Virus record (IMG/VR): IMGVR_UViG_3300023227_000007
Coordinates: 1-46,519 of that record
Length of the DNA stretch: 46,519 nt
Strand: one strand, 5' to 3'
Source: a virus
The translations under genes and the position numbers were made by a program. The notes under the pieces were generated by a model that made no database searches, was not told the DNA's origin, and saw only the letters and a program-made list of their open reading frames with translations. Shown here in pieces: positions 1 through 46,519 of this stretch; position 1 is the first letter of the stretch; each line of letters starts with the position of its first letter.

Positions 1-2
1 AC

Positions 3-24953: not shown

Positions 24954-24973
24954 GTTGATCTAGAGTCAACGTT
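24954..24973. promoter_or_regulatory. Dyad GTTGA-N7-TCAACGTT
   Basis: Third copy of the dyad seen at 4676 and 13671. It overlaps the 3' end of the XRE regulator gene. Possible operator; function unknown. Confidence 0.3.
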
Positions 24974-33815: not shown

Positions 33816-34063
33816 GCCTCGAGTATGTGCGCAGTTTCTACAAGGTGCCGGCAGAGATCGGGCGGCGCGTGGTCGTTTACGGTAAGGCTGGGATCATTGC
33901 AGAGGATCACGGTCATTACATTGGAGTAAATCTCGACTCAGATAGGCCCGGGAATGTCGGCCGTTATCATCCATGCGATGATGTCAAATATTTGGGTATG
34001 GGCGAAGTGCGAGAGCTGACGCGAGGAGATACGACGGAAGCGGTATCGAATGGGAGGTTATGA
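33812..34063 (+). CDS. Small phage protein of KOW-like beta fold
   Basis: An 83-residue protein from GTG. VPAEIGRRVVVYGKAGIIA, then YIGVNLDSD, then RYHPCDDVKYLG: the order of small phage proteins that I recall as of KOW-like beta type. It is the last gene with phage-type composition before 34064, where the cassette array starts. Confidence 0.5.
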   Translation: MSLEYVRSFYKVPAEIGRRVVVYGKAGIIAEDHGHYIGVNLDSDRPGNVGRYHPCDDVKYLGMGEVRELTRGDTTEAVSNGRL

Positions 34064-34121
34064 ACCCTAGGCGCATATCTCATTATTACGAGATCCCAGA
34101 ACCTGAAATCCTAACTGAATC

Positions 34122-34445
34122 ATGAAATACACATACTCAATCGAATCCTACTTCTCCAGTAAGTGGGTAAAGCTCTTCACTGAAACGCGAGACTTCTGCA
34201 AGGGTTGGCTTACTCACGCACAATACGACTACCCAAGAAACGCTAAGCGAATCGTGAGGAGCGACGGCAAGGTCATGGCCGAAATCAAAGCCAACGACGA
34301 GGTGAGCATCGGCATGATCGCAAGCTACCCGACTCCGGAACAATACGAGAGAGCAGCAAATGTCGCTCTCGCAAAGGCGGCACGCATCCGAGAAGCGGAC
34401 GGACATGAAGAACGCCGAATGAACCGCATATCGCTATCCACCTAA
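34122..34445 (+). CDS. Cassette ORF 1, hypothetical
   Basis: A 107-residue protein, with an N-terminus of alternating aromatic and polar residues (YSIESYFSSKWVKLF) and a helical, Arg-rich end. It is the first ORF of the array; the stop TAA lies in a probable R'' box ACCTAAC (34440-34446). No R' box was found 5' of it, so the left end of the array is not sharply defined. Not recognised. Confidence 0.55.
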   Translation: MKYTYSIESYFSSKWVKLFTETRDFCKGWLTHAQYDYPRNAKRIVRSDGKVMAEIKANDEVSIGMIASYPTPEQYERAANVALAKAARIREADGHEERRMNRISLST

Positions 34446-34556
34446 CAACTTCTACCATGAACGCCGCCAACAATCACCTCCCAAACATTGACCACCAATG
34501 ATACCCGCAAACCAAACCCCTCCCACGACCGCCAAGCCGCGACCAGCTGGTTCGCA
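34440..34556 (+). other. Possible attC site (weak; boxes only)
   Basis: R'' ACCTAAC and R' GTTCGCA frame 117 bp that include the start and leader of the following ORF. The inner arms do not pair convincingly. It is listed because the leader type TPP...AGS and the codon phase of the crossover point agree with the better sites. Confidence 0.35.
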
Positions 34557-34920
34557 CTTTTCCGTAGCAGTCAAATCTGAATGGAAAGGAGGCTGGCAAG
34601 CTGAGTTCAGTGTCGGAGTGCAGACCTTCGCAGTCGGGCCAGAGTATAAGACGTTTTCAGAAGCACAGTGGATGTCTGACCGACTACGGGAAGCCCTCAC
34701 GTCTATTGCGAAGTCTGAACCCGCACAACGGTCTGCATCGCTTTGCTGCCCAGACTGCGAGGATACCGGCATGGTGGGCGATCAGGAAGCAGGCGGCATG
34801 TATCGGGGATCCAAACGGACGCTCAACGACGAATGGGCAATGTGCGGGTGTGATCCGGGGGCCCTGGCGGTCCGTAATCTCGCAAAACGATCAGGGCCGA
34901 ACACCGGAGATCAGCTATGA
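34498..34920 (+). CDS. Cassette ORF 2, zinc-ribbon-like hypothetical
   Basis: A 140-residue protein. The N-terminal 20 residues (TPPTTAKPRPAGS) are coded inside the attC-like region. The following part is beta-rich, then LCCPDCEDTG and CGCDP give two Cys pairs, possibly a zinc site. It ends in SGPNTGDQL, where GCCGAAC (34896-34902) is an R''-type box. ATG overlap with next ORF. Not recognised. Confidence 0.55.
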   Translation: MIPANQTPPTTAKPRPAGSHFSVAVKSEWKGGWQAEFSVGVQTFAVGPEYKTFSEAQWMSDRLREALTSIAKSEPAQRSASLCCPDCEDTGMVGDQEAGGMYRGSKRTLNDEWAMCGCDPGALAVRNLAKRSGPNTGDQL

Positions 34921-35237
34921 GCGACTCAAATAAAGGCAACTGGGCGACGGCTACGGCCGCCCAAAAAGAGGCAGTGAATGAAGCGTGGCGTCGCGCCGCA
35001 CAACGGTCCGAATCGGTGGATTTGCTGACCAACCGGAAAACAGACTCCATCGTCAAAGACAGAGACTACCATATCACCGGATACGTGCTTACATCTAAGT
35101 CAGGAAAGGAATCCTGCGTCGTAGATAGAGCAGCAGTCCGATGGCTCACGAGCGTGGAATGGTGGGAGCTCATGCACCCCGCGAGCGACGACCTCGCGCC
35201 GAACAATGAACACACCCCGAAAAACGACCGTGAATAA
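34917..35237 (+). CDS. Cassette ORF 3, hypothetical
   Basis: A 106-residue polar protein (TAAQKEAVNEAWRRAAQRSE, then DYHITGYVLTSKSG). The C-terminus passes an R''-type box GCCGAAC at 35198-35204 and overlaps the next ORF by 32 nt. No R' box was found at its 5' end. Function unknown. Confidence 0.5.
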   Translation: MSDSNKGNWATATAAQKEAVNEAWRRAAQRSESVDLLTNRKTDSIVKDRDYHITGYVLTSKSGKESCVVDRAAVRWLTSVEWWELMHPASDDLAPNNEHTPKNDRE

Positions 35238-35270
35238 CACTCAAAATTCCAAAGGCGTGACTGGATCGAA
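35198..35270 (+). other. Possible degenerate attC site
   Basis: R'' GCCGAAC and, 73 bp on, GATCGAA in the place of R' after the usual CTG spacer. The GTT core is changed to GAT and the arms do not pair, so it is probably inactive. The leader it encodes (NTPRKT...GVTGSN) keeps the type and phase of the other leaders. Confidence 0.3.
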
Positions 35271-35574
35271 TTGTCTGCATAATCTGGTTTCCTTATTTCG
35301 CAACCGGTTGATCCCCAGCGAGGGCCGGACTCAGGGCGAGCAATACTATGACGACAGGTGGTTCGCGCTCTCCGACGGGTGCGATACGGTCCAGAATCTA
35401 GCCGATGACCTCGAACCGATTATCGAGGAAAGTGAACGTCGAAAGGAAGCACTCGAATGGTGCCTACGCAAACTCAAAACCCATCACGCGACCAAGCGCG
35501 GAATCTCCGCGTTAATCAAAGAAACTGAAGCGATGACGAACACCCAGTTGAGCCGCGAGCCCAAACAACCCTAA
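35206..35574 (+). CDS. Cassette ORF 4, helical hypothetical
   Basis: A 122-residue protein. It starts inside the degenerate attC-like site. The core has QGEQYYDDRWFALSDGCDTV, then a charged helix (EPIIEESERRKEALEWCLRK). Its C-terminal residues are coded within the next attC (R'' GACGAAC 35535-35541 and left arm). Not recognised. Confidence 0.5.
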   Translation: MNTPRKTTVNNTQNSKGVTGSNCLHNLVSLFRNRLIPSEGRTQGEQYYDDRWFALSDGCDTVQNLADDLEPIIEESERRKEALEWCLRKLKTHHATKRGISALIKETEAMTNTQLSREPKQP

Positions 35575-35661
35575 CCCAGCCCCATCCAATATCATGCCCA
35601 ATAATCCCACCCCTCCCGCTGCCGTGCAACCTAGGCTTGTTGGCTCAACGTCTGGTTCGGC
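35535..35661 (+). other. attC site, long class (127 bp)
   Basis: R'' GACGAAC; spacer ACCCAG; left arm TTGAGCC (35548-35554) and further CAACCCTA; right arm TAGGCTTGTTGGCTCAA (ends 35648); spacer CGTCTG; R' GTTCGGC (35655-35661). Spacers are 6 nt at both sides. The start codon of the next ORF (35594) is in the loop. Confidence 0.65.
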
Positions 35662-36496
35662 CAATCTGGAAGACTTACTAGCGAGGTGCAAAAAGCTCCA
35701 TTCGTTTATCGGATGGTATTGCATGTCATGCGATTCCGAGGTCGATGCGACATACCGAGAACGCTGCGCGTCATGTGGCGGCGTCCTACATGACGAGACA
35801 ATCACCGGAAACCTAGTCGAAGCGGCGACTTATGAATTAAACGCACTGAAGTGTCCGTGGCATCCTATCGAAACTGCACCGAAGGACGATAGGATAGACA
35901 TATGGCTGTCTTGCGGCACCCGATGGTGCGACTGTTACTATGATGTGATTTGCGACCAATGGCGAACGAGTAGGCCATCCGGGAATCTCCTTTCGGTCAA
36001 AGCAAGGTTTGTATCTCACTGGATGCCCATACCGCAATCACCGAAACCCGCGAATGATGCGCCTCGCCAGAAGCGACTGGTTCGGCTCGATCGCTCAAAC
36101 TACCTCGACTTCGATCCGCCTCAACGCTGCGAGTGCGGGGGATCCCTCCAAGTCAAAGACTATCCAAACCGCCGGGATGAATCGAGGTATGAGGTATTCT
36201 GCCCGCAATGCTCACAATGTGACCCAAACGGCTACGGATCGCAGCGTGAAGTAATCGACCAATTCCCCAGTATACTTTCTGAGAACTCTGGTTCTAAATT
36301 TTATGCCGATGATAGAGGCAACGTCGTGGACTACTACGACGAAACTGAGCAAGTCGCGCGAATAGATAGAGAGGCTACCGTCAACGGGAAGGCCGATCAA
36401 AGCACCTTCGACAACTGGGCGGGAGGCCAAGCACTAGAGGCGTGGATGCGACTCAACGACTACGGGGAGGAACTCGATGAGGCGGCCCGAATTTGA
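35594..36496 (+). CDS. Cassette ORF 5, DUF551-type domain fused through a cassette boundary to a zinc-ribbon-like domain
   Basis: A 300-residue ORF that seems to join two cassettes. Residues 1-22 (PTPPAAVQPRLVGS) are coded in attC. Then CMSCDSE...CASCGG (zinc-ribbon-like). Residues about 88-152 (CPWHPIETAPKDDRIDIWL to HWMPIPQSP) match DUF551, which usually ends a protein right there. At residues about 152-163 a boundary site follows (R' 36080-36086). The second part has CECGGSL and CPQCSQC, a second zinc ribbon, and an acidic end. One frame runs through without a stop. It may be one fused protein or two genes. Confidence 0.6.
   Translation: MPNNPTPPAAVQPRLVGSTSGSANLEDLLARCKKLHSFIGWYCMSCDSEVDATYRERCASCGGVLHDETITGNLVEAATYELNALKCPWHPIETAPKDDRIDIWLSCGTRWCDCYYDVICDQWRTSRPSGNLLSVKARFVSHWMPIPQSPKPANDAPRQKRLVRLDRSNYLDFDPPQRCECGGSLQVKDYPNRRDESRYEVFCPQCSQCDPNGYGSQREVIDQFPSILSENSGSKFYADDRGNVVDYYDETEQVARIDREATVNGKADQSTFDNWAGGQALEAWMRLNDYGEELDEAARI
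36041..36086 (+). other. Cassette boundary inside an ORF (attC-like right half)
   Basis: CCGAAAC, then a block ending CGACTG, then R' GTTCGGC. A 39-bp block (36044-36082) recurs with one change at 36572-36610, and a diverged copy at 37855-37893. The sequence is translated in frame as PKPANDAPRQKRLVR. Clear arms of an inverted repeat are missing, so recombination competence is uncertain. Confidence 0.5.
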
Positions 36497-36550
36497 TGCG
36501 AGCCCGGCGGATTGAGCCGCAAGCCGTAGGCTCAAATCGCTTTGTTCGGC
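36485..36550 (+). other. attC-like site
   Basis: Arms GCGGATTGAGCC (36507-36518) and GGCTCAAATCGC (36529-36540) pair with one extrahelical A; R' is GTTCGGC (36544-36550). The R'' is poor (GCCCGAA at 36485-36491). It follows ORF 5 directly, as the 3' site of a cassette should. Confidence 0.55.
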
Positions 36551-36571
36551 ACTATTCCCACCCCACCTCAA

Positions 36572-36614
36572 AAACCCGCGAATGATGCGCCTCGCCAGCA
36601 GCGACTGGTTAGCC
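36572..36614 (+). repeat. Second copy of 39-bp cassette-boundary repeat, with R'-like GTTAGCC
   Basis: It is identical to 36044-36082 except for one base. Only 64 bp separate its R'-like box from that of the preceding site, so nothing but attC material lies between them: an ORF-less cassette or a partly deleted one. Its frame (PTPPQKPANDAPRQQRLVS) stays open and stops at 36650-36652, overlapping the next start as ATGA. Confidence 0.6.
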
Positions 36615-36648
36615 TCCGAATTTCAACCGTAACAGAAAATATAATACA

Positions 36649-36897
36649 ATGAGCGATACACCCAAAACTGACAGCGCATTTGATACCGGTCCCGGTTCGG
36701 GCAAGCTAATGTGCCAACTACTCGAAAAGGAGACCGCACGCCACGCGGAGATACTACACGACGGCTATGCTGTCTACTCGCAACTCACGGACCACGAAAA
36801 GAAATACACATCAGCAGAAAACGTTTCCACCGTTCTCGATGCGTTCAAACGCGCAGTGGCTAACAACGAGGTCAGACGCGACCCGTCGAAGGCTTAA
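36649..36897 (+). CDS. Cassette ORF 6, TPKTD-type small protein
   Basis: An 82-residue protein starting SDTPKTDSAF, of the TPRTD/TPKTD style known for small phage and environmental-bacterial proteins, followed by a helix (CQLLEKETARHAEILHDG) and a second (VSTVLDAFKRAVAN). The start overlaps the stop of a leader frame upstream, so coupling is likely. Function unknown. Confidence 0.55.
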   Translation: MSDTPKTDSAFDTGPGSGKLMCQLLEKETARHAEILHDGYAVYSQLTDHEKKYTSAENVSTVLDAFKRAVANNEVRRDPSKA

Positions 36898-36918
36898 AAC
36901 CTCAACCAACCAATAAAA

Positions 36919-37227
36919 ATGTCATACCAAAATAAAATGTCAGAAGCCGGACAGCGAGGGTCGTTGTCTGAAGTGGTTTGTTATGCTCAGATTGGCATCG
37001 ACTGCTGCAATCAACCGATAATCCCAACGCGTGCCAAGCTGTCGATGCACACCAATCGGCACACCAGCACGTCAGGAAACTCGTGGGGATGGGTCGATGG
37101 TTGCTCGCTAAACATATGCTGGTCAAACGACGGCGAGAAATTCAACAGAAAAAAGGCCGCTGAACTGGTTGCTTTGCATAACAAAAAGTTCAGAGGCGAA
37201 GAGAGCGCAGCGAACGCAGTTCTCTGA
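36919..37227 (+). CDS. Cassette ORF 7, hypothetical
   Basis: A 102-residue protein starting in the weak attC at 36922-36986. Beyond the R' box the protein has YAQIGIDCCNQPIIPTRA, then TSTSGNSWGWVDGCS and a Lys-rich helix. The cassette has a perfect heptamer match: R' GTTATGC (36980-36986) and R'' GCATAAC (37176-37182). The stop TGA is in the right arm of the attC. Not recognised. Confidence 0.55.
   Translation: MSYQNKMSEAGQRGSLSEVVCYAQIGIDCCNQPIIPTRAKLSMHTNRHTSTSGNSWGWVDGCSLNICWSNDGEKFNRKKAAELVALHNKKFRGEESAANAVL
36922..36986 (+). other. attC site, weak R''
   Basis: TCATACC as a degenerate R'', TCAGA left arm (36940-36944) with TCTGA right arm (36967-36971), spacer, R' GTTATGC (36980-36986). 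It aligns well with the site at 37176-37242 along its whole length. Confidence 0.5.
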
Positions 37228-37242
37228 AACGTCGAGTTAGAT
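37176..37242 (+). other. attC site, short class (67 bp)
   Basis: R'' GCATAAC; AAAAAG; left arm TTCAGAG (37189-37195); right arm CTCTGAA (37222-37228); ACGTCGA; R' GTTAGAT (37236-37242). Arms pair perfectly. Confidence 0.75.
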
Positions 37243-37251
37243 AATTTTACT

Positions 37252-37476
37252 ATGAAAACACCAAGAACCGATCAAGAATCCAAGATGACTCCCCGCACCG
37301 GAGTCGCAGTCGTAGAGGCTGCATTTGCCGAGGGACTGGAGAAGGAACTCCACGAAATGTCGATCACGCTTTCACGCATAACCGAGTGCGGCGGAATCGG
37401 GGCCGAGGATATGTATCACGACGCCCGCGACCTGCTAGACCGCCACGGGGAGACGAGAAAGAATGCTTCTGCCTAA
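37252..37476 (+). CDS. Cassette ORF 8, TPRTD-type small protein
   Basis: A 74-residue protein starting KTPRTDQESKMTPRTG, with the TPRT motif twice, then a helix (FAEGLEKELHEMSITLSRI). It starts 16 nt after the R' box, the standard place for a cassette gene. Its stop codon is inside R'' GCCTAAC (37471-37477). It shows family resemblance to the protein at 36649-36897. Function unknown. Confidence 0.6.
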   Translation: MKTPRTDQESKMTPRTGVAVVEAAFAEGLEKELHEMSITLSRITECGGIGAEDMYHDARDLLDRHGETRKNASA

Positions 37477-37601
37477 CATCGAGATCACCAATTCCGAGGG
37501 ACAATAACTATGCCTGCCAAACTAACTATCGAAAACAGCTTTGACTACGCCAACCCCGACAAGGTGCGCCCCTCGGAATTGGGTGCGGCGACTGGTTGGG
37601 T
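37471..37601 (+). other. attC site, long class (131 bp)
   Basis: R'' GCCTAAC; left arm CACCAATTCCGAGGG (37486-37500); right arm CCCTCGGAATTGGGTG (37570-37585) with one extrahelical G; spacer CGGCGACTG; R' GTTGGGT (37595-37601). The loop of about 69 nt contains the ATG of the next ORF. Confidence 0.8.
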
Positions 37602-38148
37602 GCTTCCGCTGGATCGAGACGGGGCAGACGATGATTCGCCCCACGGATACCCCGCGACCAATGAGGACGGGACCGCGCCGATAGTCGAGCGCGACACAAT
37701 ATGGATCCATGAAACGTGGTGTTATGATGCCTGCCAATGTGGGGGATGTGCTACGGGATGGAGAGAATACCCAATCGACGGCAAGCGATTCCACTACCTC
37801 GCCGAACGATTTAGATATGACGGGACCATCCAGAAAATGAGCACACATACGCCAGAACCCGTGAATGGTGGGCCTTGTCATCGGCGACTGGTTCTGCATC
37901 TTCCGCTAACTTTTCATTGGTATGATGAAACCGCCCGTGGGGCTAATTGCATCGAATACCGTGTGATGAAACCGCGATGGGAGAAACAGATATGGGACCG
38001 CCGAGACGAGATCACTCATGTCCGCTTCTCTCGCGGCTATACGTCCCGCACAATCGAATACCCCGTCGAGAGAATCGACAAAGGATCGTGTCCGATACCG
38101 GGATGGACCGACCAATATTTCCGAATCCACTTCACGCAGAACAATTAG
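37510..38148 (+). CDS. Cassette ORF 9, two-cassette fusion, weakly ASCH-like
   Basis: A 212-residue ORF that starts in the loop of the attC at 37471-37601. First part: TIWIHETWCYDACQCGGC resembles the WVRETW stretch of ASCH-type phage proteins. At residues about 115-130 a boundary copy follows (TPEPVNGGPCHRRLV), then the second part with YRVMKPRWEKQIWDRRDEI, similar to the MPRWASR region at the end of the same families. So the two halves of what may be one domain lie at either side of a boundary, or the boundary was inserted. Stop TAG is in the next attC. Confidence 0.5.
   Translation: MPAKLTIENSFDYANPDKVRPSELGAATGWVLPLDRDGADDDSPHGYPATNEDGTAPIVERDTIWIHETWCYDACQCGGCATGWREYPIDGKRFHYLAERFRYDGTIQKMSTHTPEPVNGGPCHRRLVLHLPLTFHWYDETARGANCIEYRVMKPRWEKQIWDRRDEITHVRFSRGYTSRTIEYPVERIDKGSCPIPGWTDQYFRIHFTQNN
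37852..37897 (+). other. Cassette boundary inside an ORF (attC-like)
   Basis: R'' CCAGAAC, a block like that at 36044-36082, spacer CGACTG, R' GTTCTGC (37891-37897). The R' is the exact reverse complement of the R'' GCAGAAC of the site at 38136, so a cassette boundary here is credible although arms are unclear. Codon phase equals that of the boundary at 36080. Confidence 0.55.
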
Positions 38149-38192
38149 TTCAGAGGCGCACAACGTGCGTTCTCTGGAACGTCTGGTTAGAC
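38136..38192 (+). other. attC site, short class (57 bp)
   Basis: R'' GCAGAAC; AATTAG; left arm TTCAGAG (38149-38155); GCGC...GTGCG centre; right arm CTCTG-G-AA (38172-38179) with an extrahelical G; CGTCTG; R' GTTAGAC (38186-38192), a perfect GTTRRRY. Confidence 0.85.
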
Positions 38193-38201
38193 TCCGATTT
38201 A

Positions 38202-38458
38202 TGAACTATCTAAAACGAATCAAATGCCGCATCGTGGGGCACAATTACCGAGTAGTGCAGCGATTCTCTGGCTCAGTGCGGCGCGTGAAATGCGACTGCT
38301 GTGATGCTGACTGGGGGATGAATGATAATACTCGATCCCTTATCGACTGGGACAACGAACTAGAAGAAATGCACGGCCGCACTGTGGGGATAAAAGAACC
38401 AAAGTTTACCCATGCTAACAAATCAACTGAGCCGATGCAGGCCCCTAAAACACCATGA
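38202..38458 (+). CDS. Cassette ORF 10, DUF1660-like phage protein
   Basis: An 85-residue protein. KCRIVGHNYRVVQRFSGSVR, then VKCDCCDADWGMND and LIDWDNELEEMHG are in the order of DUF1660, a small zinc-binding type family known in phages. It starts 16 nt after R' GTTAGAC. The last 15 residues (NKSTEPMQAPKTP) are coded in the next attC. It overlaps the next ORF by ATGA. Confidence 0.65.
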
Positions 38459-38543
38459 CTACTCCAAACTCCCAAACTCAAACACCTCCCGCCGAAGCCA
38501 AGAAACGCCCAGAGCCTGCATTGGCTCCAGTGGCTGGTTCGGC
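38413..38543 (+). other. attC site, long class (131 bp)
   Basis: R'' TGCTAAC; left arm ACTGAGCCGATGCAGGC (38426-38442); right arm GCCTGCATTGGCTCCAGT (38514-38531) with one extrahelical C and one mismatch; GGCTG; R' GTTCGGC (38537-38543). The loop contains the ATG of the next ORF. Confidence 0.8.
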
Positions 38544-38760
38544 CTACGGTTTTGAACTCAACGAATATGAGATGCGGGCATTTGCTCTGATAGAGGGAGC
38601 GAGCGAACCGGCAAAGGACCGACTACTCTTATCCCTAATTATGCGCCATCACAGCGGAGGAGGCCCCGGCAAGGCATACGATGCCAGTCAACTTTTATGG
38701 TGGGAGAATCGAATAGCTCGTCACCCCATCATGCAAAGTCTCGATGGGCCGAACATCTAG
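38455..38760 (+). CDS. Cassette ORF 11, hypothetical with attC-coded leader
   Basis: A 101-residue protein. Residues 1-29 (TPPAEAKK...PVAGS) are coded in attC; no start codon lies near the R' box, so initiation within the attC is hard to avoid. The body has ELNEYEMRAFALIEGASEPA and LLSLIMRHHSGGG. The cassette has a perfect heptamer match GTTCGGC/GCCGAAC. Not recognised. Confidence 0.6.
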   Translation: MTTPNSQTQTPPAEAKKRPEPALAPVAGSAYGFELNEYEMRAFALIEGASEPAKDRLLLSLIMRHHSGGGPGKAYDASQLLWWENRIARHPIMQSLDGPNI

Positions 38761-38807
38761 TTCAGATGCGGCGATTTATCGCCGTTATCTGAAACGTCTG
38801 GTTGGGC
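38748..38807 (+). other. attC site, short class (60 bp)
   Basis: R'' GCCGAAC; ATCTAG; left arm TTCAGAT (38761-38767); central hairpin GGCGA-TTTA-TCGCC; right arm ATCTGAA (38787-38793); ACGTCTG; R' GTTGGGC (38801-38807). Perfect arms; this is the clearest site in the array. Confidence 0.9.
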
Positions 38808-38837
38808 GTTTCCTGACCGTAATCAAATAAACAATAC

Positions 38838-39146
38838 ATGAAAGTAACAACGATAGGCCACAAATACGAACTCGACAGCTTCGAGGGATCTCCTCCGCAA
38901 CCGCTACAATTCATCGAGAAGCGAGAATCGCCCGTCGCAGGCGAAGGGCTCGAAACCGTGAACGATGGAACGACCAACGAGGAAGTGCTCGAAGTGCTGA
39001 TCGACCGCGTGAAATACCTGAACGGGAAATTCCCGTGTCGGGAAAACGCCATCGTCATCACGAAGCTGGAAGAGTCGCTGATGTGGCTCAATAAACGCAC
39101 GGCTGACCGGAAGACGCGAGGTGTCGAAGGAAAGGCCGCAGCTTGA
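38838..39146 (+). CDS. Cassette ORF 12, Acb2/Tad1-hairpin-like phage protein (anti-defence candidate)
   Basis: A 102-residue protein. N-terminal part KYELDSFEGSPPQPLQFIEK is a beta region seen in a family of small phage proteins; the C-terminal part EEVLEVLIDRVKYLNGKFPC with RENAIVITKLEESLMWLNKR is a helical hairpin with R-E-N...T-K-L-E-E-x-x-M-W, the pattern of the Acb2/Tad1-type hairpin. Acb2 proteins sponge cyclic nucleotides and so block CBASS immunity. The cassette is well formed: R' GTTGGGC at its start, GCCCAAC at its end (39180-39186). The anti-CBASS role is an inference from the motif. Confidence 0.55.
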   Translation: MKVTTIGHKYELDSFEGSPPQPLQFIEKRESPVAGEGLETVNDGTTNEEVLEVLIDRVKYLNGKFPCRENAIVITKLEESLMWLNKRTADRKTRGVEGKAAA

Positions 39147-39152
39147 CCCAAT

Positions 39153-39186
39153 GGGCGGTGACGGTCCAATCCCCGATCCGCCCAAC
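39153..39186 (+). other. Right edge of array: hairpin and lone R'' box
   Basis: GGGCGG (39153-39158) pairs with CCGCCC (39178-39183), and R'' GCCCAAC follows at 39180-39186. The right half of an attC is not found downstream; instead a gene of phage-type composition starts at 39195. The array thus ends in a half site. Confidence 0.5.
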
Positions 39187-39194
39187 AAGTCATT

Positions 39195-39551
39195 ATGACC
39201 AAGCCATGCACAGTTACTTCGGCAAATGGCCGAAAATGGGCGAGTTACAATCGTCGTCGTTCTGCTGACCGATCTGCCGATCAACGCAAGCGGGAGGAGA
39301 ATCGTTTGGATCGCAGTGCGATGGTCGATGCCTTGTTGATCGAGGAACACGAGCAGTTGCCTCCTAATCCGCAGTCTTTGCCGAATGGAAAGCCTCCGCT
39401 TTTGTTGAAGGTGACGATCGAGGTGGCTGGGCAGAAGCGCGTATGGCGATCACGGCATGAGGAAGGCTACGGCTGGTCGGTATCAGGTAATCTGATATGC
39501 AAGGCGATCAGAACAATTATGCGGTTTGGGCCGATGGAAAGTTCCAGTTGA
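39195..39551 (+). CDS. Basic hypothetical phage protein
   Basis: A 118-residue protein with a basic N-terminal half (NRRRSADRSADQRKREENRL) and a beta-rich C-terminal half (KVTIEVAGQKRVWRSR). Codon use returns to the G/T-rich phage type within the first codons. It is the first gene right of the array. Not recognised. Confidence 0.55.
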   Translation: MTKPCTVTSANGRKWASYNRRRSADRSADQRKREENRLDRSAMVDALLIEEHEQLPPNPQSLPNGKPPLLLKVTIEVAGQKRVWRSRHEEGYGWSVSGNLICKAIRTIMRFGPMESSS

Positions 39552-39598
39552 GAACGTCTATTTTAATCACTTCGCCCTTTGGTAGTAGGGGATTTCCT

Positions 39599-39802
39599 AT
39601 GCTTAAAATCTGGCAATTTAAACGTGGGATTCGTTCCGGCTACAGGGACTCCCAAAGGAAAGAAAAACGAGATCTTACGGAAGGCAGCACTTTCAAGGAG
39701 GGGTATGTGGTCGGCATGACCGCTTATGCCCTTTCGATAAGTCTGGAGGTGGCGCTGCGTGATGGAGTGGCTGCTTTTGAATCACGGACTGATCGTGAGT
39801 AG
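39599..39802 (+). CDS. Small hypothetical protein
   Basis: A 67-residue protein. The ATG is 7 nt after AGTAGGGG (39584-39591), which decides this start over an upstream one overlapping the previous gene. Basic N-terminus (KIWQFKRGIRSGYRD), then an Ala/Leu-rich amphipathic helix. The stop TAG is part of the next AGTAGGGG word. Confidence 0.55.
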   Translation: MLKIWQFKRGIRSGYRDSQRKEKRDLTEGSTFKEGYVVGMTAYALSISLEVALRDGVAAFESRTDRE

Positions 39803-39810
39803 GGGATAAT

Positions 39811-40314
39811 ATGAATTTGATAAATAGATCTTTTTATCGATGCGCTGGGTGCCTAGCGGTGATTGCCGTGGATGGTGTGTCTGCTGCGGCAAAGTGTGGC
39901 GCTTGTGGCTCCTCTTTGGAGTCGATGGGTAATGTCCACATGGCGGAGAAGGTGAAGGTTTCTGGCGGGTGCAATTGTGATGCTCGCTGCACTCACGCCA
40001 AAGGGCCAAAGTGTGATTGCCGGTGCCGGGGCCAAAATCACGGGGCAGGGCTAGTCGTTATTGCGTCGGGCCTCGATGCTATGCCCAGTGACCATCTCGA
40101 GGCTAAGGGGCGATTTAATGAGTTTGAGAATGCTGTTCAGGATTTGGAGTCGTGGTCGGCTGGGCGGAAGGTTGGCGACCGTCTGCGTGCGGAATGGGTG
40201 CTGTCCAAGGCGAAGGCGTCAAGGCAGCATAAGCATCGGATGAAGCTGATCCGGGACTTCCGAGTTGGTGCGCTTGCGGGGGAGGAGGAGCCTCCGTTTC
40301 TGGAGCTTCTTTAA
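39811..40314 (+). CDS. Cys-rich zinc-binding phage protein
   Basis: A 167-residue protein. CAGCLAV...CGACGS gives a zinc-ribbon pair; then CNCDARCTHAKGPKCDCRC with GQNHG, a motif I recall in small phage proteins. The C-terminal half is helical and basic. The start is ATG 5 nt after AGTAGGGG. Probably binds zinc; role unknown. Confidence 0.65.
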   Translation: MNLINRSFYRCAGCLAVIAVDGVSAAAKCGACGSSLESMGNVHMAEKVKVSGGCNCDARCTHAKGPKCDCRCRGQNHGAGLVVIASGLDAMPSDHLEAKGRFNEFENAVQDLESWSAGRKVGDRLRAEWVLSKAKASRQHKHRMKLIRDFRVGALAGEEEPPFLELL

Positions 40315-40378
40315 TAGATCGATGGGCACCAGTAGGGGTGATCTCTCGACCGTAAATTCAAAATAAATTCAAAATAAA

Positions 40379-40801
40379 ATGAGCACTCACGCAGCAATCA
40401 TTCGCAAAACCGAGACCGGGACCTATGCCGGTATTTATTGCCATTTCGATGGCTACTTGACTGGCCTTGGTCGTCTCCTCCACTACCATTATCAGGATCC
40501 TGAAAAGGTGGCGGCGCTGATCGCTCTCGGTGATATCTCGTATCTGGAGAAAAGCGTCATTCCTGATCCTGAAAAGGGGGAGCATTCTTATGCGAACAGT
40601 CAGGAGGGTGTTGTCGTCGCCTACCACCGTGATCGTGGTGAGCAGTGGGGCAGTGTTAAGCCGACCGAGCGTGCCATTCTTAAGGGCGTAGTGGACCATA
40701 TCGATTCTCGCTACACCTACGTTTTCGAGGACGGCGTTTGGCGGAGCGGCGGAATCCGGCTAAATGAGCTGCTTTATCTCAAGGCGAAGGAGGGCGAATA
40801 A
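40379..40801 (+). CDS. Conserved phage hypothetical protein
   Basis: A 140-residue protein. AGIYCHFDGYLTGLGRLLHY, then VAALIALGDISYLEK, match a small family common in phages (CHWDGYL...LGDIS). Function is not known to me. A plus-strand AGTAGGGG (40331-40338) lies 40 nt upstream, farther than usual. Overlaps next start by TAATG. Confidence 0.65.
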   Translation: MSTHAAIIRKTETGTYAGIYCHFDGYLTGLGRLLHYHYQDPEKVAALIALGDISYLEKSVIPDPEKGEHSYANSQEGVVVAYHRDRGEQWGSVKPTERAILKGVVDHIDSRYTYVFEDGVWRSGGIRLNELLYLKAKEGE

Positions 40802-41055
40802 TGGGCTTTGAAATCGAGAAGGGGATTCCTGTTCCAAGTCAGAGTTTTGGTCACAGGTATGCGCGATATCCGTGGCGCGAAATGGAAATCGGCGACAGCT
40901 TTTTGGTTAAGTGCTCTCGCTCAAAAGAGCGACAAGCTATTTCTGCTTCTGCGACTCAGTTTAGTCGTCGCAATCCAGAGTATAAATTTATCACGCGATC
41001 GGATCTTCTAGATGGGGTTATTCATGTCCGTGTCTGGCGGGTGGGTGGGGTTTAA
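40801..41055 (+). CDS. Small hypothetical protein
   Basis: An 84-residue protein (WREMEIGDSFLVKCSRSKER, then HVRVWRVGG). The pattern of a beta hairpin plus helix and SKER-type basic patch recalls small phage proteins for which no role is known. Coupled with the gene upstream (TAATG). Confidence 0.55.
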   Translation: MGFEIEKGIPVPSQSFGHRYARYPWREMEIGDSFLVKCSRSKERQAISASATQFSRRNPEYKFITRSDLLDGVIHVRVWRVGGV

Positions 41056-41099
41056 ATCCTGATTTTTATATTGCTCAGAGCAATCAGTAGGGATCAGCC

Positions 41100-41675
41100 A
41101 TGAAACCACTATCATTTGTTCTTGATCGCTTCGGTGCAGGGTTCCGAAAGCTAGAAATCCGTTCAGTCTATAATTCTTGGCATGGGACGGTCGAGTTTTG
41201 GACCGATGCAGAGTTTGCCGAGCCAGAGGGTTCGTTAGGCGGCGAGCCCTTTGTTTCTCTTTGTGGCATCAATGCGGATGGTCTTCGCGTCCATATCTCG
41301 TCTTTCGATACGGCCGAATCAGCTAGGGCGTTGGCTCGTCAGCTTGGGGCTTACGTCGATCCGGCTGCGGTCGTGGGTGTCATTGTCTCGCTTGAGGCAG
41401 AAGCGTGTAATGTTGATGCGTCGATCAGTATTTCTGAAGCTTATGACGGCATGGATCAATTCCAGCGCGAAATGATGCGCGTTGCTTGCGAGTTTGAGGC
41501 GTGGTCGTGGGATAATTTCGATTACGAGGTGCTTGAGGATCCTTGGTCCTATCTACTGGCGGACAGGTTCGGGGCGGTGCTGGTGCAGACCGGTCGCACC
41601 ATGCTCGATCTCGCAGATCTAGGGATCAGCGATTGGGAGGCAATTGGCGCAATTTTGAAAACGATTCGGCTTTGA
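41100..41675 (+). CDS. Acidic hypothetical protein
   Basis: A 191-residue acidic protein. Middle part VVGVIVSLEAEACNVD, then MDQFQREMMRVACEFEAWSW. The start is ATG 8 nt after AGTAGGGA (41086-41093). Acidic, Asp/Glu/Trp-rich proteins in early regions sometimes mimic DNA, but there is no specific support here. Confidence 0.5.
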   Translation: MKPLSFVLDRFGAGFRKLEIRSVYNSWHGTVEFWTDAEFAEPEGSLGGEPFVSLCGINADGLRVHISSFDTAESARALARQLGAYVDPAAVVGVIVSLEAEACNVDASISISEAYDGMDQFQREMMRVACEFEAWSWDNFDYEVLEDPWSYLLADRFGAVLVQTGRTMLDLADLGISDWEAIGAILKTIRL

Positions 41676-41688
41676 AGTAGGGGGATGT

Positions 41689-42294
41689 ATGATGAAACGC
41701 AAAAAGCCAAGATCGGCCATTCCTTCTCCTTCCTCATTCACTGTTCGTATTCCTCGATGCGAGCGCAGGGGGCGTAATTCTTTAATCCGTGCTTGCGGCA
41801 ATGCGGGGGCGGCGATCATTGGAGGCGTGGGTGTTAGCCTCGGTTGTGGTGGTATGATGAGCTCCGATTTCATTGGATGCGTTGCTCATCCTTCTCGCCA
41901 TTTTTATCGGAATGCGGAATCCATTGGTTTTCAGCGCGGGGCGCTTTACGGTGTCCTTTTCCCCGACTCCGATGCGGCTTTTGATGCGATGCTGGTCGCT
42001 GGGTATTCGCATGTCATGCGTTCGATGCGCGAGTCTCGATATGGGTTCTTCGGTTCCATGCGTCGTTCCATGCGCAAGGCCATAAAGCGGGGCGATTTGT
42101 CGGTCGAGGGAGTGCGTGCTTATTACGATTCCCTCACTGCTGCTGGCGTGTTTATCGGGCTCCGGACTCCGTTGCAGCGCGAGAAGCGATTTGTTCAGAA
42201 TGCTGACTATTGGGTGAAGTTTGATTTGCCGCGGATATCTCGTAAGACGGCTTCTTTGCCGTGCGTTTTTGAATCCTTTCTAGCTTTGAAGTAG
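41689..42294 (+). CDS. Hypothetical protein
   Basis: A 201-residue protein with a basic N-terminus (KRKKPRSAIPSPSS), a Gly/Ala-rich hydrophobic stretch (residues about 37-56), and a basic helical C-terminal part (GSMRRSMRKAIKRGDLS). The start follows AGTAGGGGG by 4 nt; a second ATG lies one codon on. Stop TAG is within the next AGTAGGGA. Confidence 0.5.
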   Translation: MMKRKKPRSAIPSPSSFTVRIPRCERRGRNSLIRACGNAGAAIIGGVGVSLGCGGMMSSDFIGCVAHPSRHFYRNAESIGFQRGALYGVLFPDSDAAFDAMLVAGYSHVMRSMRESRYGFFGSMRRSMRKAIKRGDLSVEGVRAYYDSLTAAGVFIGLRTPLQREKRFVQNADYWVKFDLPRISRKTASLPCVFESFLALK

Positions 42295-42302
42295 GGACTC
42301 TT

Positions 42303-42881
42303 ATGCCAATAACATCAGCCATTCAAATCGGTTATTATTTCGCCCAGCATGACGGGGAGCTTCGGCCGGAAATCTTAGAGCTATTCGAATCCGCGGCGAG
42401 CGCTTTGGATCGAATCGAAGAGCAAGGAGGCGACGACTTCTGGGGTGATCGGCCTAATCTCATTACTTGGGACGAGGTCTGTGATTCCATCGCCAGTCAC
42501 ATCGCTTTTCATGTGGACGTCGAGTCGCTGTTTCATATCTACGATTGGGAGCCGTTCCTCCGTGATTTGGTCGGGTTGCCTGATAAGAAGGCGCTGCCTC
42601 CCGATCCTGAAATAATTCCAAATCTCTCCGCAGTGCGCCACAAAGAGTGGCACAATACCAAGACTGGCCAGACGGCTTCCCTCGGTGAATCTCTTCCTTG
42701 GCTGAGTTCCCGCGGGGCGTGGGTCATTCGTTCCCGCGGGTGGACCATCTACAATCGCAATCGCAATGTTACTGGCATCGGTCGCTTCCCGTTTAAGAGC
42801 GAGGAGGAGGCCAATGCTTGGATTGCTAAGGAGTCCGCTCGTCGTCTGGCCTATGTTAAATCCATCGATTCCACGAAATAA
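42303..42881 (+). CDS. Hypothetical protein
   Basis: A 192-residue protein. PEILELFESAASALDRIEEQ is a charged helix; WVIRSRGWTIYNRNRNVTGI and FKSEEEANAWIAKESARRLA form a C-terminal part like a small sheet plus helix (DRBM- or KTSC-like in pattern only). ATG 5 nt after AGTAGGGA. Confidence 0.5.
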   Translation: MPITSAIQIGYYFAQHDGELRPEILELFESAASALDRIEEQGGDDFWGDRPNLITWDEVCDSIASHIAFHVDVESLFHIYDWEPFLRDLVGLPDKKALPPDPEIIPNLSAVRHKEWHNTKTGQTASLGESLPWLSSRGAWVIRSRGWTIYNRNRNVTGIGRFPFKSEEEANAWIAKESARRLAYVKSIDSTK

Positions 42882-42892
42882 GGACAAATATC

Positions 42893-43201
42893 ATGAGTGA
42901 AAAAATGAAAATATTGAATCAATCCATCGGGAAAGCGGGCCAATCGCTTACGGCTATTTCGTTGGTTGCGCTCGGTCCGCATAAGCTGAAGACGACCATC
43001 AGGTCGGATTCCCATCCGGGACAGTGCGCTGCCGGTGTCGAGCTGCATGACGGCGTGCAATGGCGCTTTTTGGCGAGCATTCCGGCTTCCGGCATGGCTA
43101 CTCCTCATTCGCTGGTCTATGCTCGTGTGGTTCCGGAAATGGATGGTTTTGAGTTGGACCGTGGGGAGCTTATCCGCCTCGCCACCCTTATCCTTTTTTA
43201 A
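42893..43201 (+). CDS. Hypothetical protein
   Basis: A 102-residue protein with beta-rich pattern (LKTTIRSDSHPGQCAAGVEL). It has a conventional AAGGACA before the start rather than the AGTAGGGG word. Ends in a hydrophobic helix (LIRLATLILF). Not recognised. Confidence 0.5.
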   Translation: MSEKMKILNQSIGKAGQSLTAISLVALGPHKLKTTIRSDSHPGQCAAGVELHDGVQWRFLASIPASGMATPHSLVYARVVPEMDGFELDRGELIRLATLILF

Positions 43202-43233
43202 TCCCTCGTCTTGTTGTAGTAGGGGTTTCGGCA

Positions 43234-43608
43234 ATGAAAATTATCCAATCAAATATTCCCGGCGTTCAAATCACTGAGGTGCCATCAAAGACCGTGACGG
43301 TCACAATCGACTTCGAGACGATTCTTCGTCGTGTTGCCGAGTGCTGCATTGACAATATTGTCGATGGCATTAGCTGCGACGACGCCGACGAAATCGCGAC
43401 TTACGGTCCCTTGATTCATGATGTTTCCTTGGCTCTTTTCAGTTGGGATGAGGATCTGGTGCGGCGCTTTTTTGTCGATGGCTACTGCGCGGCGCTCCTT
43501 CCGGTCGACGTTGATAAGGTCTGGGAGGGTGAGGTCTTTCGGAATGTGGTTATTACTCGCAAGGGTAAGAAGGATATCTCGATCGGCCACCTTGCGCTTG
43601 CTTGGTAA
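43234..43608 (+). CDS. Hypothetical protein
   Basis: A 124-residue acidic protein (ILRRVAECCIDNIVDGISCD, then EDLVRRFFVDGYCAALLP). ATG 8 nt after AGTAGGGG (43218-43225). Not recognised. Confidence 0.5.
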   Translation: MKIIQSNIPGVQITEVPSKTVTVTIDFETILRRVAECCIDNIVDGISCDDADEIATYGPLIHDVSLALFSWDEDLVRRFFVDGYCAALLPVDVDKVWEGEVFRNVVITRKGKKDISIGHLALAW

Positions 43609-43656
43609 TCTTCCCCTTTTTTTTAAATCCTCCATCCTCCAAAGTAGGGACCAGTC

Positions 43657-44007
43657 ATGAATATTATCGACCGTATTATCCTCTCCGCCATCAAGCGGCC
43701 AGCCATTGCCTCCTTCTTGGCGGCTGAGTATCTGAAGCCCATCGAGGAGGTGGACGGTGCGATCAAAGAACTCGACGAGCGGGTCGATCGGGAGTTCGTC
43801 TCGATCGATGCGTGGGAGTCCAATTCTCGGATGGACGAGCGTGAGCAGGATCGTGAAATGCAGTCAGCCATCGAGGAAAAATTGGGCGGGCTGGATTTCA
43901 GTGAGCTGGTCGACGTCGATCAGGCTTCGGTCGAGATTCTGAAGGCCATCGAATCCTCCGACTCCCTCCGCGAGTCGTTGCTCGGTTTGATCAATAAGGG
44001 AGCATAA
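43657..44007 (+). CDS. Acidic helical hypothetical protein
   Basis: A 116-residue protein, mostly helix with heptad-like Glu, Asp and Leu (EEVDGAIKELDERVDREF). ATG follows AGTAGGGA by 6 nt. Possible coiled-coil partner protein; function unknown. Confidence 0.5.
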   Translation: MNIIDRIILSAIKRPAIASFLAAEYLKPIEEVDGAIKELDERVDREFVSIDAWESNSRMDEREQDREMQSAIEEKLGGLDFSELVDVDQASVEILKAIESSDSLRESLLGLINKGA

Positions 44008-44011
44008 TATT

Positions 44012-44389
44012 ATGCCTAATCTTAAATCTATCCCCGTGGACCTTACTTGGTCTTTTGCTATCGGCGTCCATGCCAATGTCTTGCGCAATCCAGATGCCTC
44101 TCAGTTGGCATTTAGGGGAGCGCTCCAGCAGATCGGTCAGGCGGCGAAGCTTGCAGACCGCGTCAAGCCTCTCATGGAGTCGCGCGATTCCCTCCGCGAT
44201 TGCCTGATCGAAGCTCGGGACGTTCTCATCGATCATCAGCCGGATTGGTTTGATACGGTTGAAGAGCAGGCGTGTTTCCTTCGTCGTATCGCTCGTTTCA
44301 ATGATGCCTTGGGTGTTGCTATGGGTGGGGCGGAAAAGGTGCCTGTTTGCTATTGCGCTGCGTCTCCTGTGCGTCCTTCTGCTTTTTGA
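44012..44389 (+). CDS. Hypothetical protein
   Basis: A 125-residue protein with helical core (FRGALQQIGQAAKLADRVKP). It starts 4 nt after the previous stop without an AGTAGGGG word. Not recognised. Confidence 0.5.
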   Translation: MPNLKSIPVDLTWSFAIGVHANVLRNPDASQLAFRGALQQIGQAAKLADRVKPLMESRDSLRDCLIEARDVLIDHQPDWFDTVEEQACFLRRIARFNDALGVAMGGAEKVPVCYCAASPVRPSAF

Positions 44390-44419
44390 ATCATGGCGGT
44401 GGGCGGAGTAGGGGGCTTT

Positions 44420-44695
44420 ATGAATCTTCGTGAAGAATACTATTCCCTCCGCTCCGCTTATCGGCGGGCTCATCGCACCCATAGCTTCGTCCACCAGTTG
44501 GACGTGTTCTTCGCTGGTCGCGAGCTGGTAGGGCAGTGGGATCCTTTATTCAGTCGCAAGGGGCTTGAGGTCAATCTCTGGCGCAAGTCCGGTCCAGAGT
44601 GGGGCACCATCGGCAAGACCCTTGAGGGTTCCTTTCCTACGTCGCCGGCGTTCACTCGGTGGCTCGATTTTGATTCAAATCAATCTTCCCAGTAG
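44420..44695 (+). CDS. Small basic hypothetical protein
   Basis: A 91-residue protein (EEYYSLRSAYRRAHRTHSFV, then LEVNLWRKSGPEWG). The start ATG follows AGTAGGGGG by 4 nt, preferred over an ATG 27 nt upstream. Its stop TAG lies in the next AGTAGGGG. Confidence 0.5.
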   Translation: MNLREEYYSLRSAYRRAHRTHSFVHQLDVFFAGRELVGQWDPLFSRKGLEVNLWRKSGPEWGTIGKTLEGSFPTSPAFTRWLDFDSNQSSQ

Positions 44696-44703
44696 GGGTG
44701 TTT

Positions 44704-44880
44704 ATGGACGAATCTGAATTTCAAGAAATATTAATTAGCGCATTGCTGGGCTCCGGTCATCTGGATCTCAGCAATATCCAGTCGTTTCGGGAGGGCATGC
44801 TCCTCACGAATGATGAAGGCTTTACGGCCACGATCGAGGACGGCAGAGAGTTTCAAATCACTATTGTGCGCAGTCGTTAA
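44704..44880 (+). CDS. Very small acidic hypothetical protein
   Basis: A 58-residue protein (DESEFQEILISALLGSGHLD). ATG 5 nt after AGTAGGGG; a GTG two codons before falls inside the word and is less likely. Followed by a 45-nt pyrimidine-rich spacer. Confidence 0.45.
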   Translation: MDESEFQEILISALLGSGHLDLSNIQSFREGMLLTNDEGFTATIEDGREFQITIVRSR

Positions 44881-44925
44881 TCCTCTTCCGTCCTCTTCCC
44901 TCCTCGATCCTTTCCCTTCCCCCTT

Positions 44926-45249
44926 ATGCCTGCTCTCCTCCCTCCCTCCCTTCGCGATCTCAGCTTGGTCGCCAATCTTGAAGCGTGCGCTTCTCTTCTT
45001 GAATCAATCCCAAATGATACGGCGTGCAAAATCACCGCGGCTTGGGCGCGTCGGTCGCTGGATTACGCAAAGAATCCGCCTCATCCACCGGTGGACGATA
45101 TGGGGGTGCTTGCTATCCTTACTGAGGTCTCTGCGTCCGAAAAGCTGAACGGGTGCGCTGATCGTGTGCGGCTCCATGGTCTCTCCCTTCGGTGCCTACG
45201 TCTGACTGGTCGCACTCCGGCTGCGCTGCTCGAGCTCCTCAATCTTTAA
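44926..45249 (+). CDS. Hypothetical protein
   Basis: A 107-residue helical protein (LEACASLLESIPNDTACKIT, then VRLHGLSLRCLRLTG). Upstream is a spacer of almost only C and T, without any Shine-Dalgarno-like purines, so initiation is unusual. Not recognised. Confidence 0.45.
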   Translation: MPALLPPSLRDLSLVANLEACASLLESIPNDTACKITAAWARRSLDYAKNPPHPPVDDMGVLAILTEVSASEKLNGCADRVRLHGLSLRCLRLTGRTPAALLELLNL

Positions 45250-45278
45250 TCGGTCCCTTCGCCCCAGTAGGGGGTTGT

Positions 45279-45503
45279 ATGCTCGTCATCAAAATGAAAT
45301 CTAAAATCCTCAATTCCGCCCATGTTCAATCAATGGTTGCGGCCCTTAAATCGGCAGGAATCTCCTGCGAAAAGACCGCGACGACTCGCGTTTGCACTGC
45401 CACCAATTCGCAGACCGGCGTCAAGGAAGTCGTCTTCCGTGCCATGAAGCACAGTCGCAATCGCACTTGGTTGGTTTCCTATAGCGCCGATCTATTTGTC
45501 TGA
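45279..45503 (+). CDS. Small hypothetical protein
   Basis: A 74-residue protein (MVAALKSAGISCEKTATTRV, then VVFRAMKHSRNRTWLVSY), a helix-strand pattern. ATG 4 nt after AGTAGGGGG (45266-45274), which decides the start against an upstream in-frame ATG that overlaps the previous gene. Confidence 0.5.
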   Translation: MLVIKMKSKILNSAHVQSMVAALKSAGISCEKTATTRVCTATNSQTGVKEVVFRAMKHSRNRTWLVSYSADLFV

Positions 45504-45538
45504 TCGGCTTTAATCCTCCTTCCTCTTCCCTCTCGCCA

Positions 45539-45769
45539 ATGAATCTAGATCAAATCCTCGCTGAAATCCTCGCCACCTACGACCATCCAGATATCGCTGC
45601 GCTGGCCCATGAAATGGCCATCGGCAATCTCTCGGTGCGCAGGCAGCTGGCCGACTCAATCTGCGGCAAGCCCACTGGTAAAGTTCGGCCTTCGTTTCTC
45701 TTGGAAATCAGCCGATGGGGTATTAACGACGGTCTCAGCCAGTGCGGTGAAATCCGTAGATTGGCTTAG
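45539..45769 (+). CDS. Small hypothetical protein
   Basis: A 76-residue helical protein (DIAALAHEMAIGNLSVRRQL). Preceded by a C/T-rich spacer instead of a purine-rich binding site. Not recognised. Confidence 0.45.
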   Translation: MNLDQILAEILATYDHPDIAALAHEMAIGNLSVRRQLADSICGKPTGKVRPSFLLEISRWGINDGLSQCGEIRRLA

Positions 45770-45820
45770 TCTGGATGCCTCTCTTTTTTATTTCCGCTCT
45801 TCGCTCCAGTAGTGACCCTC

Positions 45821-46123
45821 ATGTCCTCCTTACCTCCCATTCTTCTCACTTCTCGGTCCTTGATCGTGCAGGCAGCAATTGTTACCGAGTTGGCTATCCC
45901 AAATTGGACAGGCAGCACTCCTGTCCAGTTGGCGGAGGCGGGGAGACTCCATCCTTCGGCATCTCGTGCTTGGGCGCTGCGCTTGCTGAATGGTGAGCTC
46001 GGTTCGGCATGGTATCGTAGCTACGGCTTTGTTGATTACATGCTCATGAGCGCCAAATTCGTCAAGGGGTTCTGCGAGGAGGTGGAGCGGGTGTATTTTG
46101 AATCAAATGGTTCTTCCCAGTAG
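45821..46123 (+). CDS. Hypothetical protein, possibly sequence-specific DNA-binding
   Basis: A 100-residue protein; VQLAEAGRLHPSASRAWALR resembles a helix-turn-helix-like pair but without clear family. ATG 6 nt after AGTAGTGA (45808-45815), a variant of the recurrent word. Stop TAG belongs to the next copy. Confidence 0.4.
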   Translation: MSSLPPILLTSRSLIVQAAIVTELAIPNWTGSTPVQLAEAGRLHPSASRAWALRLLNGELGSAWYRSYGFVDYMLMSAKFVKGFCEEVERVYFESNGSSQ

Positions 46124-46131
46124 TGGTTCGT

Positions 46132-46386
46132 ATGACCTCCTCTACCGCTAAATTCTCCCTCAATGAAATCCAAGTCCAGCATTCGGTGCGCGTCCACCTT
46201 GGGTTCGAGCACTTGACTGTTGATGCCCCTAATGGGTGGGCTGATGTCAAAAAGTTGACCGGCAAAATCCTCACCTTTGACGGTCGTAGGTTTGGTTGGG
46301 TCGGCTGGAATTCCGACCGAAATGTTGCTTATTTCCGGCGCGATCTTGATGGGTCATTCCCCCTCGTTGCGACCGTCTCCCAGTGA
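46132..46386 (+). CDS. Small beta-rich hypothetical protein
   Basis: An 84-residue protein (HLTVDAPNGWADVKKLTGKI, then FGWVGWNSDRNVAYF). ATG after AGTAGTGG (46119-46126). Last complete gene in the window. Not recognised. Confidence 0.45.
   Translation: MTSSTAKFSLNEIQVQHSVRVHLGFEHLTVDAPNGWADVKKLTGKILTFDGRRFGWVGWNSDRNVAYFRRDLDGSFPLVATVSQ

Positions 46387-46519
<133 letters not shown>

Follow-up and report, generated by a model that had tools for sequence, protein, structure and literature searches.

A repeated sequence word, AGTAGGG(G/A), was analysed computationally in IMG/VR virus record IMGVR_UViG_3300023227_000007, a bacterial virus of 46,519 nt from an environmental sample; this whole stretch of DNA is called the window. 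The word stands ahead of many small genes and is accompanied, at a fixed distance upstream, by a second block, so that the consensus is bipartite: TTTTNAA(T)-N14-15-AGTAGGG(G/A). The two-block element is a real and strongly non-random gene-start signal, whose function we infer from geometry alone and in a single record. We consider it somewhat probable (about 0.55) that the word forms the downstream part of a two-block DNA signal acting as a phage-specific promoter-type element.

A two-block element at gene starts

Exact copies of AGTAGGGG were found ten times in the window, all on the plus strand, while dinucleotide shuffles led to an expectation of 0.5 (maximum of 2 in 100 shuffles). An earlier sequence-only reading of this DNA had reported thirteen copies in 6.5 kb. 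Its coordinates (39584-46126) were correct, but only eight of these copies are identical, and thirteen is reached only with the variants, namely three copies of AGTAGGGA (41086, 42290 and 43643) and two of AGTAGTG[GA] (AGTAGTGA/G, at 45808 and 46119). The two further upstream copies that it listed were both found, exact, at 32064 and 33445, giving a set of 15, all on the plus strand. The copies are confined to 32-33.5 and 39.6-46.1 kb, in the non-structural half. In the structural genes of a longer contig of the same phage (L034), AGTAGGG occurred only once, at window position 226, and was not accompanied by block 1. The elements, all on the plus strand, are as follows.

Element 1, 32040-32071: block 1 at 32040-32049, block 2 (AGTAGGGG) at 32064-32071; in the end of gene 31710-32096, before TTG 32093
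Element 2, 33421-33452: within the last part of the DnaC-like gene (32605-33462); the following gene starts at ATG 33459
Element 3, 39560-39591: ahead of ATG 39599
Element 4, 39774-39805: gives the TAG stop of gene 39599-39802; ahead of ATG 39811
Element 5, 40307-40338: 48 nt ahead of ATG 40379, which is not ribosome-binding spacing
Element 6 (AGTAGGGA), 41062-41093: ahead of ATG 41100
Element 7, 41652-41683: ahead of ATG 41689
Element 8 (AGTAGGGA), 42266-42297: gives a TAG stop; ahead of ATG 42303
Element 9, 43194-43225: ahead of ATG 43234
Element 10 (AGTAGGGA), 43619-43650: ahead of ATG 43657
Element 11, 44383-44414: ahead of ATG 44420
Element 12, 44667-44698: gives a TAG stop; ahead of ATG 44704
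Element 13, 45242-45273: ahead of ATG 45279
Element 14 (AGTAGTGA), 45784-45815: ahead of ATG 45821
Element 15 (AGTAGTGG), 46095-46126: gives a TAG stop; ahead of ATG 46132
Possible decayed element (TGTTAAATCC then AATAAGGA), 42853-42884: word at 42877, ATG 42893; second-best non-member in the profile scan described below, at 11.6 bits

The repeat as first described is real, but half of the signal had been overlooked. The upstream block, TTTTNAA(T), has its first T at -23 from the word in all 15 copies. When the copies were aligned on the word, T at -23, -21 and -20 and A at -18 were present in 15/15, T at -22 in 13/15 and A at -17 in 11/15. TTTTNAA with at most one mismatch was present at offset -23 from 13/13 plus-strand AGTAGGG words. 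At the other offsets from -80 to +79 it was present in at most 2/13, except at two overlapping neighbours of -23, and its background in the window was 0.0056 (0.56%) per position. Five other AGTAGGG/AGTAGTG words in the window (8488, 21027 and 38251, and 226 and 23002 on the minus strand) all lacked block 1. In a two-block profile scan of the window, the 15 members scored 22-29 bits and the best non-member scored 11.6 bits.

The word is closely tied to start codons. As the sequence-only reading had noted for nearly all copies (4-9 nt), a start ATG follows 5-8 nt after the end of 12 of the 13 array copies, the exception being the copy at 40331, with its ATG at +48. Eight copies have their ATG at +13 and five have it at +14 to +16 (four in the array, plus 33445 at +14), which makes 13/15 altogether; at a random place, an ATG is found at +13 in 1.9% of cases. 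The copy at 32064 lies within a coding sequence, where the nearby ATG is an in-frame codon five codons ahead of the stop of that gene; the next gene starts with a TTG at +29, preceded by its own GGAGG. The copies at 39798, 42290, 44691 and 46119 supply the TAG stop of the preceding gene, four copies as had been described. In the copy at 33445, a run of ten G (33449-33458) directly follows the AGTA of AGTAGGGG and leads up to ATG 33459, where the next gene overlaps the last part of the DnaC-like gene; this run is a possible slippage site.

Identity between copies was 72% and 92% in the two blocks and 27%, 26% and 26% in the 14-nt spacer, the upstream flank and the gene starts, respectively, the last three being close to random places (25%). 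Block 1 coincides with codons in each of the three phases, with stop codons or with non-coding sequence, which places the constraint on nucleotides. No detectable sequence similarity was found when the array proteins were compared with each other. Since they are mutually unlike and the spacer and flanks are at random identity, the copies are not recent duplicates. Judged from these identities, the two short blocks and their distance are under selection rather than kept by duplication or shuffling. Recent duplication or shuffling of a 40-nt unit was ruled out by the near-random spacer identity and the absence of paralogous proteins.

The sequence-only reading had also proposed a small linker for gene shuffling, that is, a short shared sequence at gene borders by which phages would shuffle accessory genes by recombination. 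The elements do lie at the borders of unrelated small genes. However, the linker is unsupported, because the sequence between and around the blocks is at random identity; two copies lie inside the coding sequence of replication-region genes, and the block spacing never varies. We consider a linker very improbable. A terminator scan raised block 1 as the U-tract of an intrinsic terminator, which was ruled out by hairpin energies: the mean before block 1 was -3.9 kcal/mol, compared with -3.2 kcal/mol at random places and -3.8 kcal/mol at other TTTT runs, and 5/15 copies had no hairpin.

Pyrimidine-rich TTAATCCTCC-type stretches were observed after genes at 44876-44896, 45509-45529 and 46393-46413. 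They resemble block 1 plus CTCC, lack AGTAGGG and are possibly related weaker or decayed elements.

Promoter, translation and operator readings

A protein that touches DNA at two sites would need just such a fixed distance, about two helical turns, across a spacer that is not conserved. In the promoter reading, a sigma-type or similar specificity factor, either a host alternative or phage-encoded, would recognise a -35-like sequence in block 1 and a -10-like sequence in block 2, and transcription would start at or beside the start codon. Each small accessory gene or gene pair would then be transcribed into a separate mRNA, leaderless or with a very short leader. On read-through transcripts from the preceding gene, the AGGGG of block 2 may in addition serve as a weak Shine-Dalgarno sequence, a secondary role that we regard as possible. 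When the ATG at +13 (8 copies) was set as +1, block 1 was placed by arithmetic at -36 to -31 and block 2 at -13 to -6, which is a sigma-type promoter register, and the two blocks keep this fixed spacing in 15/15 copies (-23). T was found directly before the ATG in 8/13 element genes and in 8/40 other ATG genes (Fisher p = 0.012), and any pyrimidine in 11/13 and 21/40, respectively (p = 0.053). Transcription starts usually prefer a pyrimidine-purine step, which T or another pyrimidine before the ATG fits. The outlying copies at 32064 and 40331 retain both blocks and their spacing and cannot be ribosome-binding sites, since 32064 is followed by a gene with its own GGAGG and the ATG after 40331 is 48 nt away.

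Several points weigh against a promoter. The trend towards a pyrimidine before the ATG is weak. The G-rich -10-like block is atypical and, to our knowledge, fits no sigma factor consensus. No sigma factor or RNA polymerase was recognised with Pfam and PHROGs in the part of the window and the neighbouring proteins that were scanned, the phage genome being incomplete. A gap of 5-8 nt to the ATG is also what a Shine-Dalgarno sequence needs, and no orthologous region for a conservation comparison was found in the collections searched. Most small phage proteins scanned with Pfam and PHROGs had no family. The elements do not follow the housekeeping consensus TTGACA/TATAAT, block 2 reading GTAGGG; four sigma-70-like sites were listed in the region, compared with 10.6 in shuffles, and none coincided with an element. 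A more specific form of the promoter reading is a phage-private start system, in which a factor outside the known sigma consensus classes would read TTTTNAAT-N14-AGTAGGG and start leaderless mRNAs at accessory-gene ATGs, and genes behind the 32-bp cassette would join the regulon. This we put forward only tentatively.

An element acting at the level of translation is the chief competing explanation, possible but clearly less probable. In one version, AGTAGGG would be the ribosome-binding block and the T-rich block a U-rich enhancer of the ribosomal protein S1 type; in the other, a phage RNA-binding protein would bind both blocks and control an mRNA regulon. Our estimate covers both versions jointly. 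The end of 12/13 array copies at 5-8 nt from the ATG is as expected here, and AGGGG is able to pair with the anti-Shine-Dalgarno sequence at -5.2 kcal/mol. Repeats in the same position in cluster K mycobacteriophages were presumed translational by their authors (PMC3203893, PMC11373665). However, the copies at 32064 and 40331 keep both blocks and the spacing while being off ribosome-binding distance, with a separate GGAGG in front of the gene downstream of 32064. S1 would not need an exact spacing in 15/15 copies, and AGTA is invariant without a pairing role. With the canonical anti-Shine-Dalgarno sequence, AGUAGGGG pairs through AGGGG only (-5.2 kcal/mol), compared with -8.7 kcal/mol for GGAGG and -12.2 kcal/mol for AAGGAGGU. 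AGTA is superfluous for such pairing, as had been proposed, and pairing with the canonical sequence accounts for neither AGT nor block 1. Ordinary strong GGAGG/GGAGA sites are present before other genes of the phage (14969, 16919, 17620, 19386, 28345 and 40801). A ribosome-binding block tailored to a modified 16S end, as had been proposed, explains neither the T-rich block at -23 nor the copy at 32064.

A protein-binding site on mRNA had been suggested as well. Protein binding is compatible with the data, although two blocks in a fixed geometry are better suited to a site on DNA than on mRNA. On DNA, the blocks could also form an operator, bound as one site by a phage repressor or activator, with the true promoter elsewhere or overlapping. 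The distance of about two helical turns and the lack of conservation in the spacer are consistent with this, and the phage encodes an HTH_3 protein (24966-25421) and a MerR-like protein (26980-27252). However, the blocks lack symmetry and all lie on the same strand, operators are not usually coupled so tightly to start codons, and sigma-70-like promoters in the region are not above the shuffle expectation. We consider an operator unlikely.

Promoter and translation roles predict differently for short, invariant, rigidly spaced blocks with two copies off usable starts. If the element is indeed a promoter, this would imply a transcription factor of the phage or the host that has so far escaped recognition, and small accessory genes, possibly directed against the host, that are expressed without leaders.

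Known start-associated elements and distribution

Phages have been known since 2011 to carry start-associated repeats, whose role is unproven. The start-associated sequence (SAS) of cluster K mycobacteriophages has a 13-bp consensus, GGGATAGGAGCCC, lies a few nucleotides before the ATG in the non-structural half, in some cases supplies the upstream stop and is conserved beyond Shine-Dalgarno pairing (PMC3203893). The extended start-associated sequence (ESAS), an upstream extended element, was subsequently interpreted as a promoter whose -35 and -10 hexamers are separated by 17-18 bp (Adephagia study of 2024, PMC11373665). In a 2025 survey of 188 genomes, the role of SAS/ESAS was still said to call for experimental verification (PMC12699233).

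The present element resembles SAS/ESAS in many ways: a temperate phage, about a dozen to 19 copies essentially on one strand, non-structural genes only, a position few nucleotides ahead of the ATG, copies that give the preceding gene's stop, conservation exceeding Shine-Dalgarno pairing and a second element upstream. In the window, the 15 same-orientation copies lie in the non-structural half, with 13/15 near start codons (+13 to +16). SAS is essentially absent from host genomes checked, which we count as a further likeness. However, the sequences are unrelated, with AGTAGGG(G/A) here and GGGATAGGAGCCC in cluster K. In cluster K, about half of the sites carry a 17-bp inverted repeat as their upstream part, whereas here a short T-rich block is present at every site with invariant spacing; no 17-bp imperfect inverted repeat was found upstream, the T-rich block alone being common to the copies. 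The element thus shares position and habit with SAS/ESAS but differs in sequence, and its two-block form is simpler and invariant; by analogy it would work in the same manner, yet it does not belong to that group.

Jumbo phages AR9 and phiKZ have early and late promoters before many single genes, and phiKZ late promoters use a TATG motif (PMC5312081). They share with the present element a short phage-specific consensus before many genes, recognised by motif over-representation. AR9 and phiKZ encode multisubunit RNA polymerases, whereas none was recognised in the proteins scanned here, and AR9 leaders are 26-491 nt, in contrast to the leaderless start proposed here. A canonical Shine-Dalgarno sequence is likewise a purine-rich stretch 5-8 nt before the ATG, but it has no invariant AGTA without a pairing role, no obligatory upstream block and no copies off usable start codons, as seen twice here.

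With the strict pattern, 65 stretches were found in one genome per prokaryote species (257 billion bases), compared with about 60 estimated by chance. These matches showed no lineage concentration that would mark a host, and the three in Helicobacter suis were one tandem repeat. Whole-genome counts with a looser pattern in eight matched genomes gave 1-6 per genome of 1.7-5.6 Mb, compared with 15 in the 46.5-kb window. A host-wide promoter or ribosome-binding site was rejected on these two counts. Ordinary Shine-Dalgarno sites in a host with an unusual 16S tail would account for copies placed before ATG. However, GGAGG/GGAGA is used before many other genes of the same phage, block 1 is left unexplained, which largely refutes the idea, and the genome matches to this pattern of 16 bases or more are about at chance, so that such sites are most improbable.

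Among viral contigs, the strict pattern matched once and the looser pattern gave 71 single matches, which is chance-like, and none had an array. Searches for sister phages with the capsid, terminase, RecT and three array proteins found only near-identical contigs or RecT-sharing phages, which sometimes also share a VRR-NUC nuclease. No match to 25 kb of the DNA or to the portal was found in GenBank phages, and portal searches of 399 genomes of the order of Methylotenera (L063) and 385 genomes of the class of alphaproteobacterium HTCC2255 (L072), two of the genomes matched by the pattern, found nothing. The two-block element is private to this phage in the collections searched; the host genome may simply be absent from them.

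The phage and its accessory region

From its gene content, the phage is temperate and podovirus-like. RecT is encoded in the window, and the other features are as follows.

18-4679: protein similar to internal virion protein
4714-6921: portal
7398-7473 and 7480-7554, minus strand: tRNA-Thr(TGT) and tRNA-Met(CAT) in tandem, between the portal gene and a minus-strand gene block
14969-16450: major head protein
24966-25421: HTH_3 protein
25418-26614, minus strand: tyrosine integrase
26980-27252: MerR-like protein
32605-33462: DnaC-like loader gene, with element 2 inside its end
39599-46386, plus strand: array of small genes, around 19 in number and most of them matching no family, with elements 4-15 between them

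Three near-identical contigs were 99.8-100% identical to the window. The two that extend to the right side stop near 37 kb, and the array at 39.6-46.1 kb is therefore known from one record only. L034 adds about 15.5 kb on the left, with the terminase and the N-terminal part of a giant polyvalent protein. When the contigs are joined, 1-4679 and L034:2-8623(-) form one gene of more than 4000 codons for this protein, with kinase, ADP-ribosyltransferase and ParB-like domains. The L034 strain was 92% identical to the start of the window over a 286-bp overlap, against 99.8% elsewhere. A long poly-C run at the contig end (46482-46511) is possibly an assembly or sequencing artefact, and the window end at this run is probably artificial.

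Within 34.1-39.2 kb, imperfect repeats with integron attC-like boxes (GCNGAAC/GCATAAC ... AGTTCAGAGGCG ... CTCTGAA ... GTTRRRY) were observed at 37176-37242, 38136-38192 and 38748-38807, and 2/3 of their minus strands fold better than shuffles (z of -3.4 and -3.1). The phage integrase had no match to the NCBIfam integron-integrase models. By its sequence, the region looks like a small cassette array without an integron integrase in a phage; cassette arrays of this sort in phages are already known (PMC9892861). The base skew flips inside the accessory region (34000-46400), the plus strand being A-rich at 34-38 kb (the attC-like part) and T-rich at 40-46 kb (the element array), which suggests two differently acquired gene sets.

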